A stretch of 64,000 bases of DNA from a virus: positions 29,683 to 93,682 of IMG/VR virus record IMGVR_UViG_3300031977_001295, one strand, 5' to 3'. Of the stretch, positions 6,083 through 30,426 are shown one piece after another. The stretch's first letter is position 1. Each line of letters starts with the position of its first letter. The notes under the pieces were generated by a model that saw nothing but the letters and a program-made list of their open reading frames with translations, did no database searches and was not told the origin of the DNA. The translations under genes and the position numbers were made by a program.

Positions 6083-6232
6083 ATGGACTACAAGAAAGAA
6101 ATCTCAGAAAGATACAAACCAGCTGAAGGTCAGATATTTTACATTTACCGGACCTTCAGTGGTAAGGTGGTTGCCTTAAATTATAAGACAACTGCAGCAG
6201 AACTGTTACAGACGATTAAGTGGGCCGCTTAA
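6083..6232 (+). CDS. Small plus-strand hypothetical protein (49 aa)
   Basis: A plus-strand frame of 49 residues begins MDYKKEISERYKPAEGQIFY and ends LLQTIKWAA. Its composition looks coding, with a strand-rich middle (IYRTFSGKVVALNY) and a final helix. Its TAA overlaps the stop of the convergent cupin gene by four bases. A TATATATAAA box (6051-6060) lies 23 bases upstream and could serve as a late-type promoter. No good Shine-Dalgarno site is seen, so it remains tentative. Confidence 0.45.
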   Translation: MDYKKEISERYKPAEGQIFYIYRTFSGKVVALNYKTTAAELLQTIKWAA

Positions 6233-6645
6233 TCTGCGTTCAGGTCGGTCAAAGGATTGCCCGGATGACCCTCAATCATTGGCGTCTCTAAACGAACTCC
6301 TTGAGTACGTCGAACAATATCGTCTGAATTAAATTCTGACCAATACAATTCGAATGCAACGCCATCGTTAACACCTACAAACTGATGCCACTTGCCTGGA
6401 GGAACTTTATAGTAATCTCCAGCACGTAGAATAGTTTGGTCACACAAATGGGGTTGTTCGTCTGTCGGTTGGTCTGGCCATACTTTGACCATTAACGTTC
6501 CGGACTCCACGAAAAAACCATTCCACTTAGTTTGATGATAATGTTCTGAACAACAAACATTTGCTTTGAACTCGATTCGATGGAACTCAAACGAAGGTGT
6601 ATGTTCAACGAGTTCTGTAGTACCCCAAATTTTTCCTGACTTCAT
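6229..6645 (-). CDS. Cupin-domain protein
   Basis: This 138-residue single-domain cupin has both family motifs. Motif 1 is SEHYHQTKWNGFFVESG (His, His, a later acidic residue, Gly). Motif 2 is AGDYYKVPPGKWHQFVG (P-x-G-x-x-H). It resembles the metal-binding cupin half of mannose-6-phosphate isomerase-like proteins, and the Trp and Glu contents fit a small-molecule binding barrel. The substrate is unknown. It is the last gene of the peroxiredoxin-glyA-cytochrome series, and its ATG overlaps the cytochrome stop (TAATG). Confidence 0.8.
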   Translation of the reverse strand: MKSGKIWGTTELVEHTPSFEFHRIEFKANVCCSEHYHQTKWNGFFVESGTLMVKVWPDQPTDEQPHLCDQTILRAGDYYKVPPGKWHQFVGVNDGVAFELYWSEFNSDDIVRRTQGVRLETPMIEGHPGNPLTDLNAD

Positions 6646-7067
6646 TATAAACTCTCAATGTATTCTGATAACTGTTCTATATCTAGGTCACTCAATAAAC
6701 CTGCCTGACTCCACATCATAGATGACTGGCGACCAACACGCTCTCCATTCTTGTATGCGACCAGACGTTGTTTGATGTAGTCAGCAGTTTGACCCTGTAG
6801 TGCAGGACCAACACCACCCTCACCCTTCATACCATGACAAGCGATACAACCTGCATACTTTGCCTCGCCTGGCAATGCAACAACCTCTGCTACCTCAACT
6901 GCTTCACCAGCGATTACAACTCTGGGTTTAAACAAAGTGTAGTCAACCGTGGCTTTATCATTATCGTCTGGGCCCATCATGGGTGTAACACGAGTACCAA
7001 AAATTTTGTTAGGGTCACATCCACTAACCAAACTTAGCACCAGAATTAACGGAATCACTTTTAACAT
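6645..7067 (-). CDS. Lipoprotein c-type cytochrome (class I, c553/c4-like)
   Basis: The 140-residue protein starts with a lipoprotein signal (hydrophobic VIPLILVLSLVSGC, lipid-bearing Cys17). A heme site follows at 74-78 (CIACHG: Cys74, Cys77, His78), then GEGGVGPALQGQ. Near the end SSMMW (Met117/118) is the likely sixth heme ligand, followed by DIEQLSEYIESL, the usual last helix of class I cytochromes. The exported, membrane-anchored protein would sit in the periplasm of a Gram-negative host and carry electrons. Heme attachment would depend on host Ccm machinery. SD GGAGG lies ten bases before the ATG. A cytochrome c in a T4-like phage is unusual. Confidence 0.88.
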   Translation of the reverse strand: MLKVIPLILVLSLVSGCDPNKIFGTRVTPMMGPDDNDKATVDYTLFKPRVVIAGEAVEVAEVVALPGEAKYAGCIACHGMKGEGGVGPALQGQTADYIKQRLVAYKNGERVGRQSSMMWSQAGLLSDLDIEQLSEYIESL

Positions 7068-7152
7068 TTTTTCTATGCCTCCAAATTATAAAATGAAACG
7101 GGAACATTGTGATTAAATAAACCACGCTCAGATAAATTGCCCACTCAATCAC
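7024..7152 (-). CDS. Possible small membrane protein (42 aa, GTG start)
   Basis: A GTG overlaps the glyA stop (GTGA at 7152-7149), and GGAG lies five bases before it. The frame encodes a single membrane helix (IEWAIYLSVVYLITMFPFHF) followed by a basic IIWRHRKNVKSD tail, with the positive end predicted inside. Its 3' end overlaps the cytochrome start region by 44 bases in another frame. The position between glyA and a membrane cytochrome makes a helper role conceivable, but nothing shows it. Confidence 0.45.
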   Translation of the reverse strand: MIEWAIYLSVVYLITMFPFHFIIWRHRKNVKSDSVNSGAKFG

Positions 7153-8318
7153 GCTAACTCCATTACTGCGTTAGAAATTGTACGAGCGATTTCTCTAAAC
7201 CACTCTGCGTCTTTCCCTCTAGTTGTTTCAGCAGCAGTACCGATACGAATACCACTAGTGAATTTTGGTGGTAGTGGGTCACCAGGCACACTGTTTTTGT
7301 TCACCACAATCTGGTGGTCCTGCTCTAACCTGTCAGCAAGTTTAGACCCCATCACCTGATATTCTTTCAAGTCAAGCAGAATGATGTGACTATCTGTACC
7401 ATCCGTCACCACATACATTCCTTGTCGCCTAAACTCGTCTGCCATTTCCCATGCGTTGTCTACCACGTTCTTTGCATACTCTCGAAACTCTGGTTGCCGT
7501 GCTTCGTAGAATGCCTGAACCTTTGCAGCAACCTGATTCATCAACGGGCCACCTTGTGTGCCAGGAAATAAAGCTCCATTGATTTTCTTGGTATACTTAT
7601 CGTCCTGCCACATGATAACTCCGCCACGGGGTCCACGTAACGTCTTGTGGGTCGTTGAAGTGATAACATCGGCATAACCAAAGGGTGAAGGGTAAACGCC
7701 TCCAGCAATCAATCCTGAGTAATGTGCGATGTCTGCAAGCAGGATAGCACCTTCACGTTTTGCGATAAAGTTAAAGAATTCCCAGTTGATTCTTCTTGGA
7801 TATGCCGAGGCACCAGCGATAATCATCTTAGGTTCGTGTTTCGCAGCAAGCATATCCACTTGGTCTTCATCAATCCAACCTTGTGAGTCTACACCATACT
7901 GAATGATGTTGAATAGTTTGCCTGAGATGTTGACCTTGTGTCCGTGAGACAGATGTCCACCATCGCCAAGACTGAGTGAGAGGATGGTATCTCCTGGCTT
8001 CAGAAGACCCATCATCACTGCAAGATTGGCATTGGCACCCGAGTGTGGTTGAACATTGCATAAGAAATCTTCATCAAAACATCTCTGAAGTTCTCGCATT
8101 GCAAGATACTCAATATCGTCGTACCATTCACACCCGTTGTAGTATCGTTCGCCCGGATACCCTTCGGCATACTTGTTAGTCAGAATAGAACCAGACAACT
8201 CACGCACCTTTTCACTAGCAAAATTCTCACTAGCAATCAGTTGTGCATAATCTTCTTGTCTTGCCGCCTCTTTCTTCATGTAATTAACAAGAGTCGGGTT
8301 CATGCCAAGTTTCTTCAT
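7149..8318 (-). CDS. glyA: Serine hydroxymethyltransferase
   Basis: This 389-residue PLP enzyme converts serine and tetrahydrofolate to glycine and methylene-THF. Recognised blocks are LIASENFAS, LTNKYAEGYPG, NVQPHSGANAN, ADIAHYSGLIAGG, the PLP lysine site TSTTHKTLRGPRGG (Lys about 225), LFPGTQGG and the final SGIRIGT. It is somewhat shorter than the usual 410-420 residues. The ATG at 8318 overlaps the peroxiredoxin TGA (ATGA). A longer frame to 8345 lies inside that gene. The likely role is methylene-THF for thymidylate, plus glycine, during phage DNA synthesis (inference). Confidence 0.93.
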   Translation of the reverse strand: MKKLGMNPTLVNYMKKEAARQEDYAQLIASENFASEKVRELSGSILTNKYAEGYPGERYYNGCEWYDDIEYLAMRELQRCFDEDFLCNVQPHSGANANLAVMMGLLKPGDTILSLSLGDGGHLSHGHKVNISGKLFNIIQYGVDSQGWIDEDQVDMLAAKHEPKMIIAGASAYPRRINWEFFNFIAKREGAILLADIAHYSGLIAGGVYPSPFGYADVITSTTHKTLRGPRGGVIMWQDDKYTKKINGALFPGTQGGPLMNQVAAKVQAFYEARQPEFREYAKNVVDNAWEMADEFRRQGMYVVTDGTDSHIILLDLKEYQVMGSKLADRLEQDHQIVVNKNSVPGDPLPPKFTSGIRIGTAAETTRGKDAEWFREIARTISNAVMELA

Positions 8319-8863
8319 GCTACCTCTTTTACTGCACTTTGACAATATGCCAAAAGATTTTCTGGCGTAGAAACCTCATAAGGGTCATCATCAGCATTAT
8401 CTCGTTGACTCGCTTCAGGGAAAATTGCTTCCACCACACCATCATTTACAACCATCGCATATCGCCATGAACGTTGACCAAACCCGAGATTATCTTTACT
8501 CACTAGAGCTCCAACACCCTGAGTAAATAAACCGGAACCATCTGGAATTACTTTGACGTTCTCTAATTTTTGGTCTTTAGCCCAAGCATTCATCACGAAG
8601 GAATCGTTTACCGACATACAATAGATTTCATCGATACCCGTCTTTTGGAATTCACCAAAGTTGTTTTCGTATCCAGGCAACTGATACGTAGAACATGTTG
8701 GTGTAAACGCTCCGGGCAAACTAAACAACAACACCCTCTTACCAGAGAAATAATCGGCAGTTGTTTTATCTTCCCATCGATATGGGTTAGGTCCTTCAAT
8801 TGATTCGTCTCTTACACGAGTACGAAAAGTTACATCGGGTAGAGATTGTCCTTTTTTAATCAT
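8315..8863 (-). CDS. Peroxiredoxin (Prx5/type II-like)
   Basis: The 182-residue protein has the peroxidatic loop LPGAFTPTCSTYQLPGYE, matching the PxxxTxxC motif with catalytic Cys57, and the partner Arg in QRSWRYAMVV. VLLFSLPGAF and the absence of a C-terminal VCP resolving motif place it in the Prx5-like group, which is usually reduced by glutaredoxin or thioredoxin. It would remove peroxides formed in the infected cell. It heads a tightly coupled series with glyA, cytochrome c and cupin. The start overlaps the stop of a 43-residue gene (ATGA). Confidence 0.92.
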   Translation of the reverse strand: MIKKGQSLPDVTFRTRVRDESIEGPNPYRWEDKTTADYFSGKRVLLFSLPGAFTPTCSTYQLPGYENNFGEFQKTGIDEIYCMSVNDSFVMNAWAKDQKLENVKVIPDGSGLFTQGVGALVSKDNLGFGQRSWRYAMVVNDGVVEAIFPEASQRDNADDDPYEVSTPENLLAYCQSAVKEVA

Positions 8864-28954: not shown

Positions 28955-30426
28955 CAGATTTTTATTTCATGCATCTTATAAGGAAACTCTTCAGAATTAT
29001 ATATCTTAACTCTTTCAGCGCTGTGTCTCAAGGTGAAGTTTGGTTTTCCTCTGCTACGCAAGTCATCCGCAACATCGTATAGTTTAGTTGTTCTTCCGTC
29101 ATCGGAGACTCGCAAACCTCTTCCAATCGATTGTAAGACTCGTATTTGTGATTTACTAGGACTAGCGAATATAATGTTATGGATATTACGAATGTTGATA
29201 CCAGTACTGAAGGTTCCCAAGGATGCAAGAACAATTGAGTTAGTTTGTTTTTCAACAATTTTCCTAACGGCCTCTCTGTCGTTTGTTTTCGTTTCGCCTG
29301 ACACGTAAAATAATCTTCGTCCATCATCTAATTTATTCTCAATCAACTCTCTTAGAACTTTACCATGTTTCTCTACTAAATTAAATAAAACTAGTGTGTT
29401 ACCGTCAAGACTACAAGCAAGATTGCGAAGAAAACGGTTTCTAGCTTCACATGTAACTAAGAAATCAATTTCCTCTTGATAGGTAATGTTAGAAAGTTTT
29501 TCTCTAATTTCTTTATCGTATTTAAGTAACAGTATATCTATATCTAACTTTGCTAGAGTTTTTTGTTCTTGAAGTTTTGCTGTAGTGGTCACTTTGTGTA
29601 CAGGCCCAAATAAACCTTCAAGTACCATCTTGTTTGTTTGAGTACCGTCTAAAGTTCCAGTTGTGCCAAATCGATACTCAGCGTTAACTGCTTTGTTCAT
29701 AATAGAGGAAAGAGATTTGGCTTTAAACCCGTGACACTCATCTCCAATCACCATACCGAACTTTTCGAACCAACGTGGACCTAGTTTATGAATTGACTGC
29801 CACGTACTAATCATTACAGATTTTTCGGTGTCTTTATCTTTACCGGAATAAATGAGATGACAATTATTTTCGGCATCAAAGTTATAACTATTAAAGTCGG
29901 AATACATCTGTTCCACCAGACTAGTAGTTGGAACAATCAACAAAACTTTTTTATCTTTATATCGGTCAAGATACCATCTAAGAAGAAGATAGATGATAAA
30001 AGATTTACCGGAACCTGTAGGAGACACCAGAACACTTCTTTTATTTTCTAATGCATGTATGAAGGCATCATACTGATAGTCACGAGGCATAAACGGCAGA
30101 TTGATTTTTTCAATCCATCGCATAAGGTCCATATGGTTTAGTTTGTTTTTAGTGCCAGGCCATCCATAAGGCGTTTCTTCATATTTCAACGGTACGCCTT
30201 TTCGATAGACAAACTTTTCTATTTCTGATAGAAGACCGGCATTGATTTCGCCGTTCATACGATTCAACAGATGAATCTTACCATCCCACCTTCGTGATTT
30301 AAATGCGGGCATGTATTTTGCGCCTGGCACGTCAAAAGAAAAATAATCATACAACTCCTGAGCCAGTGAAGTTTCACACTCCACTAACTGTAACATCGCA
30401 TGATTTTTTAACTTCAACTTAATCAC
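28954..30426 (-). CDS. uvsW: DNA/RNA helicase UvsW
   Basis: This SF2 helicase of about 490 residues has Walker A SPTGSGKSFIIYLLL, motif II GDECHGFK (DECH), motif III TTGTLDGT, and C-terminal motifs VSGETKTNDRE, LASLGTFSTGINIRNIHNII and QSIGRGLRVSDDG. UvsW unwinds R-loops and branched DNA and ends origin-type replication in T4. A TTG start at 30459 would lie inside uvsY. The GTG at 30426, two bases after the uvsY stop, matches the N-terminus of relatives and is preferred, though unproven. Confidence 0.94.
   Translation of the reverse strand: MIKLKLKNHAMLQLVECETSLAQELYDYFSFDVPGAKYMPAFKSRRWDGKIHLLNRMNGEINAGLLSEIEKFVYRKGVPLKYEETPYGWPGTKNKLNHMDLMRWIEKINLPFMPRDYQYDAFIHALENKRSVLVSPTGSGKSFIIYLLLRWYLDRYKDKKVLLIVPTTSLVEQMYSDFNSYNFDAENNCHLIYSGKDKDTEKSVMISTWQSIHKLGPRWFEKFGMVIGDECHGFKAKSLSSIMNKAVNAEYRFGTTGTLDGTQTNKMVLEGLFGPVHKVTTTAKLQEQKTLAKLDIDILLLKYDKEIREKLSNITYQEEIDFLVTCEARNRFLRNLACSLDGNTLVLFNLVEKHGKVLRELIENKLDDGRRLFYVSGETKTNDREAVRKIVEKQTNSIVLASLGTFSTGINIRNIHNIIFASPSKSQIRVLQSIGRGLRVSDDGRTTKLYDVADDLRSRGKPNFTLRHSAERVKIYNSEEFPYKMHEIKI

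Follow-up and report, generated by a model that had tools for sequence, protein, structure and literature searches.

A cytochrome c lipoprotein gene in a T4-like genome

We analysed a 64,000-nucleotide stretch of DNA (the window; positions 29,683 to 93,682 of IMG/VR virus record IMGVR_UViG_3300031977_001295), which belongs to a 93,682-base virus record with a long series of T4-like core genes. Positions 6645–7067, on the minus strand, encode a 140-residue protein that ends in a TAA stop codon (6645–6647) and is recognised by the Pfam Cytochrom_C profile; these borders match exactly those of an earlier sequence-only reading, from which the strand was missing. A GGAGG that reads as ribosome-binding-like (7078–7082, minus strand) lies 10 nt ahead of the ATG. 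The gene stands in the succession peroxiredoxin, glyA, cytochrome, cupin, all on the minus strand. The peroxiredoxin gene forms the outer edge of the cassette (8315–8863; Pfam Redoxin 1.4e-25, phrog_2281 3.5e-66), glyA, encoding serine hydroxymethyltransferase, is the upstream partner (7149–8345; Pfam SHMT 9.9e-133), and the start codon of the cupin gene (6229–6645; Pfam Cupin_2 1.2e-7, phrog_7851 2.9e-12) overlaps the cytochrome stop codon (TAATG). A 42-residue ORF with a GTG start and one hydrophobic helix (7024–7152, minus strand) overlaps both glyA and the cytochrome gene and might encode a small membrane protein belonging to the cassette. Farther upstream in the same record lies a series of small proteins with, by eye, signal peptides or membrane helices (L007:8944-15392; L numbers denote loci).

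The predicted protein opens with a 16-residue signal peptide (MLKVIPLILVLSLVSG) and the lipobox LVSGC at residues 13–17 (together 7017–7067, minus strand; found by reading the sequence and by pattern), the signature of a bacterial lipoprotein with a predicted lipidation site at Cys17. Asp occupies position +2 relative to this cysteine; in enterobacteria Asp at +2 retains lipoproteins in the inner membrane, and the host of this phage may differ. In alignment, the lipobox and the tag DPNK[IV]FGTRVTP after the cysteine are common to the window protein and two relatives (L003 and L113). A 48-residue linker follows (6873–7016, minus strand), with low pLDDT at residues 24–33 and 36–40 and the segment DPNKIFGTRVTPMMGPDD shared with L003 in the alignment, and leads into a 75-residue heme domain (residues 66–140; 6648–6872, minus strand) with a predicted class I cytochrome c fold (AlphaFold2 block pLDDT 84–97; Foldseek). 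Within it lie the CIACH heme attachment motif (residues 74–78, within CIACHG 74–79; 6834–6848, minus strand), of the CxACHG form found throughout the family described below, and a C-terminal part reading SSMMWSQAG, in which Met117–Met118 are encoded at 6714–6719. The lipobox and heme site were thus where the sequence-only reading had placed them. That reading had also proposed the Met-Met pair as source of the sixth heme ligand; the second methionine is the likely ligand because Met118 is invariant among relatives and Met117 is not, which narrows the proposal to Met118 (6714–6716, minus strand), followed by the invariant Trp119 at a spacing kept across the family.

Independent searches converged on the same assignment. 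Pfam PF00034 (Cytochrom_C) scored 37.8 bits against a curated cut-off of 21.3 (E = 4.9e-9), and phmmer against solved cytochromes reached a best E of 3.4e-14, the nearest chains (8yts, 2zzs, 1h1o, 1cno and c4) being small bacterial cytochromes. AlphaFold2, given 30 viral sequences as input, returned ten-residue blocks with mean pLDDT of 90–97 over residues 71–140. Foldseek with this model retrieved 2zzs (Vibrio c554, 6.9e-6) and 8yts (Thioalkalivibrio c546/556, 1.0e-5) as best matches, along with c553 and c552, and the model superposed on 2zzs with a TM-score of 0.85 by target length and an rmsd of 1.5, as expected for a class I fold. The two hallmarks of class I, CxxCH and a C-terminal Met, are represented by C74–H78 and M118, invariant in 30/30 aligned sequences. 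All nine matches to NCBIfam subfamily models (c550, c551, SoxX, CcoP and MoxG) fell under the curated cut-offs, with c550 at 28.2 against 125 needed and SoxX at 27.9 against 61 (E = 2.8e-6). The gene product is, by homology and predicted fold, a class I cytochrome c with predicted export and a predicted membrane tether, and its anatomy speaks for an exported, tethered protein with a redox function. The proposal of a complete, exported, phage-encoded class I cytochrome c is thereby well supported at the level of sequence (Pfam, phmmer and family conservation). Of the homologues anticipated, small bacterial cytochromes were recovered, with c4 further off, and matches in known phages were not: the window cytochrome had no match among 50,697 phage records (E 0.01), nor did a cousin (E 0.001). 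PHROGs likewise gave no match for the four family members tried, and predicted viral structures gave none to the window cytochrome at E 0.001.

Phage origin of the gene

The T4-like character of the genome, as first read, was borne out by comparison with phage C48C1, whose DNA polymerase is the best match among phage records (55.9%); its record states no host, and we found nothing on this phage in the open-access literature. The window carries homologues of C48C1 replication genes (DNA polymerase, UvsX, replicative helicase, clamp, loaders, SbcCD-like 46/47, UvsW and UvsY) and of its late and structural genes (late sigma, capsid, scaffold, prohead protease, portal, terminase and neck proteins); the gp numbers on the window's T4-like genes are labels that we presume to apply. 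The cytochrome is 100% identical in two further IMG/VR contigs, 3300032087_003621 (146 kb) and 3300031841_002931 (15.6 kb), and the surrounding DNA agrees at 99.74% over 17.1 kb (the entire stretch compared) with the former and at 99.83% over 15.6 kb with the latter. Host contamination, which had been named as an outcome that would undo the reading, and likewise a chimera are ruled out because these two contigs have the same 15.6–17 kb phage flanks, and the phage origin of the predicted cytochrome gene is firm.

The cassette itself is variable. Close kin L157 (polymerase 94%) and L158 (83%) have peroxiredoxin, an 84- or 83-residue ORF and then cupin, with neither glyA nor the cytochrome. L102 and L103 have a short cytochrome of the same family, separated from a preceding glyA by one small ORF. 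A relative of L102 (L106:14860-16303) has the glyA and nuclease gene neighbours and, in the stretch examined, no family cytochrome, another possible gain or loss. Lying inside a phage genome, of a cellular metabolic type and belonging to a family under selection, the window's gene qualifies as a putative auxiliary metabolic gene.

A recurrent family of viral cytochromes

Scans of viral contigs and profile searches of ORFs yielded 33 distinct viral sequences. CxACHG was present in 33/33, as was an MW pair 44–45 residues past the first heme cysteine. Conservation of the MMW motif is partly built in because one cytochrome scan used it as its pattern; 15/33 sequences, however, entered only via a scan for alternative oxidase and so independently of that pattern, yet passed the family profile. 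An alignment of 30 had 16 invariant positions (C74, A76, C77, H78, G79, G82, G84, P88, L90, L102, Y105, S115, M118, W119, A122 and L125). Values of dN/dS were 0.08–0.38 in 13/16 pairs, the other three being saturated and the window–L113 pair near saturation, and they show the predicted family to be under purifying selection. Its members sit at different places in other T4-like contigs.

Three kinds of N terminus occur among the 33 sequences: 8 lipoproteins (the window, L003, L113, L027, L028, L032, L033 and L115), 15 forms with a membrane helix and 10 short forms with an apparent signal peptide, the latter two classes being assigned by eye and pattern (L108 is a membrane-helix form by eye, though the regular expression calls it a lipoprotein). 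Membrane-helix cytochromes (L076, L049, L050, L104 and others) have a conserved CxxxCY pair ahead of the heme domain, which the window's protein lacks; the cytochromes of L027 and L028 have a different cysteine pair there.

The cytochrome gene abuts alternative oxidase in some related phages

Alternative oxidase (AOX) oxidises ubiquinol without pumping protons. In L027, the cytochrome gene, at its stop codon, shares 4 nt with the start of a gene matching Pfam AOX at 6.5e-65. An AOX scan of IMG/VR found 196 stretches encoding relatives, and the best 80 of these 196 were kept. The diiron motifs LET, NExxH and DExxH were present in 80/80 of these best 80, and a literal EEEA in 64/80, so that the partner genes in relatives combine the Pfam AOX match with the diiron ligand motifs. 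Within the same best 80 of 196, the cytochrome family was present in 27 loci and absent from 53; the two genes abutted in 16, overlapping by 4 nt in 15 cases and by 1 nt in the other. Of these 16 abutting pairs, 13 run cytochrome–AOX and 3 run AOX–cytochrome (L080, L097 and L104). Clustering the oxidases of these best 80 at 95% identity left 44 clusters, 13 with a cytochrome and 8 with it abutting. Pfam searches over whole AOX records found cytochrome c in 15/40 and 15/40. One further locus, L028, has both genes, non-abutting, and lies outside the 80.

As a control we took 80 loci matched by the window's DNA polymerase (0.90 Mb): one had the cytochrome (L151, the sibling contig itself) and none of the 80 had AOX. 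PF00034 was likewise found in 0/10 whole records (C48C1 and the records of nine control loci), one of which (behind L160) is near-identical to the window and ends inside glyA. A Fisher test of 27/80 against 0/79 gave p 1e-9, a value that overstates the case because the contigs are related, L151 was dropped from the control and the control loci are polymerase-centred; with related contigs and a control built around a different gene, the size of the enrichment is only rough.

Neither the window's own 93.7 kb record nor the 146 kb sibling, both possibly incomplete, contains AOX (PF01786), and no PTOX PHROG was found in these two records or in three other cytochrome records. AOX occurred in 3/32 records from the cytochrome scan; many of these are short, but records of 108, 78, 66 and 64 kb also lacked it. 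Such absences carry little weight because the records have no completeness estimate. Phage C48C1 shows the reverse state, with AOX present and the cytochrome absent; its AOX is annotated as a hypothetical protein (OQ984149.1 26279-26830) and is flanked by the genes for the sliding clamp and for a clamp loader, at a spot occupied in the window by tRNA-Gly and small ORFs. In one lineage an IscU/NifU-like iron–sulfur scaffold gene overlaps AOX (L027:2842-3228), and a gene resembling it is also present in the window's record (L007:7161-7571).

Other genes recur beside the cytochrome. At 57 cytochrome loci, which are not independent and from which 19 repeat loci or the window itself were skipped, the abutting gene was glutaredoxin in 19 (for example L049:8598-9274 and L127:9030-9553), AOX in 16 and an nrdB-like gene in 7. 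The glutaredoxin label follows a motif, which missed a 78-residue neighbour in L061. Neighbours vary by lineage: cupin in the window, spanins in L003, AOX in L076 and glutaredoxin in L127. No ferritin was found in the 146 kb sibling. Because glutaredoxin and nrdB-like neighbours recur, and AOX lies between nrdA and nrdB in L102, the cytochrome and AOX genes may both be prone to insertion at the nucleotide-reductase cluster, a hot spot that would explain part of the AOX association. The main new result is a recurrent family of predicted viral cytochromes that often adjoin AOX or glutaredoxin.

Setting of the phages

Judged by one marker, the photosystem reaction-centre family, these phages are not cyanophages: 0/37 records contained it (that of the window, that of C48C1 and 35 from IMG/VR carrying the cytochrome or AOX), against two copies in the control, Prochlorococcus phage MED4-213. 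The PTOX PHROG matched at 1.2e-94 in MED4-213; the three AOX records searched for it gave 2e-5 to 1.4e-4. A single scan of bacterial genomes for a source or host gave five weak matches in Bacteroidia, and a plasmid search with L003 gave one cytochrome from Palleronia (39% identity), adjoining a PQQ sugar dehydrogenase.

A respiratory role and its alternatives

Class I c-type cytochromes that are periplasmic and membrane-tethered carry electrons between the bc1 complex and a terminal oxidase. We consider it likely that the viral cytochrome has a respiratory role, and we favour, at somewhat better than even odds, a carrier that would add capacity between host bc1 and the terminal oxidase in infection, with a non-pumping AOX branch beside it in some relatives. 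We infer heme loading, partners, host, timing and benefit as follows. The export, lipidation and cytochrome c maturation machinery of the host would load heme on the phage cytochrome, which, tethered to the periplasmic side of the inner membrane, would carry electrons from host bc1 to the host terminal oxidase; the added carrier capacity could prolong respiration and ATP supply while host gene expression is shut down. Some related phages would translate the cytochrome together with AOX, a predicted non-pumping ubiquinol oxidase, and would then supply both sides of a branched chain: AOX to relieve pressure, and a carrier in support of the cytochrome branch. A phage with both could dispose of surplus reductant and still feed the pumping branch; one with the carrier alone, such as the window's, would have to plug into host complexes. 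The abutment of cytochrome and AOX in some related phages suggests that these viruses re-wire the host respiratory chain.

To our knowledge, AOX does not use cytochrome c, so the abutment would signify at most a shared programme and no electron path. More tentatively, at slightly under an even chance, T4-like phages of non-photosynthetic bacteria may carry a dedicated respiratory module, AOX plus an exported or membrane-anchored cytochrome c, in small cassettes gained and lost, that during infection would change how ubiquinol oxidation is divided between pumping and non-pumping branches; the window's gene would be the carrier half alone. The sequence-only reading had proposed that the phage steers electron transport at the host membrane, for example by bypassing a normal cytochrome step. 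The first part gains from the recurrent AOX abutment in relatives and is tempered by the other neighbours that recur too. The bypass finds no support for this protein: a cytochrome c would strengthen the cytochrome branch as an additional carrier, and a bypass would call for AOX, which was found neither in the record of the window nor in the 146 kb sibling.

The best-placed alternative, which we consider unlikely, is that the cytochrome serves a dedicated redox enzyme, such as a host periplasmic peroxidase or a dehydrogenase of sulfur compounds or organic substrates, and not the main chain. The SoxX match (2.8e-6, under its cut-off), the PQQ sugar dehydrogenase beside the 39% plasmid relative in Palleronia, the peroxiredoxin and cupin neighbours in the window and the glutaredoxin and nrdB-like neighbours in relatives would all fit. 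Yet no periplasmic dehydrogenase or cytochrome peroxidase was recognised by eye in the neighbourhoods read, and the neighbours change between lineages. Glutaredoxin resides in the cytoplasm. Its recurrence beside the cytochrome, like that of nrdB, would also fit the infection programme proposed for a respiratory carrier, as DNA-precursor synthesis would consume reductant and energy. The glutaredoxin count slightly lowers our confidence in the respiratory reading; the absence of photosystem genes pulls the opposite way.

We regard as improbable a decoy or brake, in which the apocytochrome would compete for heme or the Ccm machinery, or occupy bc1 or the oxidase, and so damp host respiration. 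A small, tethered protein would suit such a function, and co-translation with AOX would suit a switch away from the cytochrome branch, but a heme sink would need CxxCH only, whereas M118 and W119 are invariant in 33/33, suggesting that redox function is selected. More improbable still is a lysis-related lipoprotein, spanin-like or another envelope factor, with an incidental cytochrome fold. The idea draws on L003, L004 and L005, in which the cytochrome gene lies between, and overlaps, the i-spanin and o-spanin ORFs (PHROG 4.8e-13 and 9.1e-14 in L003); this overlap is confined to that lineage, however, the spanin look-alikes of the window's record (by resemblance only; L007:4683-5654) have no cytochrome between them, and complete heme-binding motifs are retained. 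Mis-assembled host DNA or a non-functional passenger gene has a negligible chance of being correct, for although the gene family is bacterial and the records are contigs of uncultured viruses, three contigs hold the same gene in 15.6–17 kb of near-identical phage DNA, family members lie elsewhere in other T4-like contigs and dN/dS is 0.08–0.38 in 13 pairs.

Comparison with known systems

Phage electron-transfer genes are best known from cyanophages and photosynthesis; if a respiratory carrier is the right reading, the idea would extend to aerobic respiration. In cyanophages, petE and PTOX are sporadic, cassette-borne electron-transport genes thought, in the part of the source available, to balance ATP and NADPH (PMC3037559). 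The likeness, on the same partial source, is that T4-like phages pair a diiron quinol oxidase with a small electron carrier, in part within a single mobile cassette, which is interpreted there as maintaining electron flow and the balance of ATP and NADPH during infection (PMC3037559). The differences are that the carrier here is a predicted heme cytochrome c and not a copper plastocyanin, that the oxidase of relatives falls in the AOX family (Pfam AOX 6.5e-65, PTOX PHROG only E 1e-3) and that the 37 records have no photosystem reaction-centre gene. The window's phage also has the carrier alone, with no diiron quinol oxidase found in its possibly incomplete record. By analogy, the viral cytochrome/AOX system would work like petE/PTOX, yet it is no member of it.

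Vibrio c554 (2zzs), Pseudomonas nautica c552 (1cno) and Thioalkalivibrio c546/556 (8yts) share with the window cytochrome the predicted fold, CxxCH and a C-terminal Met ligand; in structure alignment over the heme domain, identity was 43–47% with these class I cytochromes and 27–35% with cytochrome c4 domains. The viral protein differs from them in its predicted lipoprotein or membrane anchor, the viral MW motif, its phage genome and scores under every curated subfamily cut-off.

Among phage-borne proteins, SoxD also has cytochrome c motifs and serves host electron transfer, according to the accessible portion of the report (PMC8190135). As described there, phages encode soxC and soxD, SoxD is a sulfur-enzyme subunit, and its first cytochrome motif is missing in one phage copy and its second in two (PMC8190135); the window cytochrome is instead a stand-alone, predicted tethered carrier. 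Respiratory-chain genes have likewise been reported from viral fractions, namely cbb3 oxidase subunit I (PMC3474794) and CydAB, CoxA and PetB (PMC3877843). Unlike our gene, these are oxidase or bc1 subunits, and none described in the sections available encodes a cytochrome c carrier within a phage genome. A study of nitrogen-cycle phages states, in the part we could consult, that no cytochromes or other such electron carriers were seen in the phages it examined (PMC8115048). By word search, 'cytochrome' is absent from the main text, as far as it was available, of a pelagimyophage survey (PMC7029224) and of PMC4053976, PMC13079714, PMC9301287, PMC7785012 and PMC5332604. In the open-access literature, outside which many journals lie, we came across no description of phages that pair a cytochrome c carrier with AOX.

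AOX is not rare in virus collections, one scan having returned 196 IMG/VR stretches with AOX relatives, and some of the AOX genes counted in metagenomes may come from viruses. Expressible in a laboratory strain, the two genes offer a direct test of phage control over host respiration. Bacterial AOX operons encode the same AOX family, at 39–54% identity among the 20 plasmid matches listed. Unlike the phage loci, the three bacterial plasmid AOX neighbourhoods compared (L144, L145 and L146) have no abutting cytochrome c. These plasmid AOX genes instead have Rrf2-type regulators, flavohemoprotein, truncated hemoglobin or nirK alongside, suggesting an NO response.
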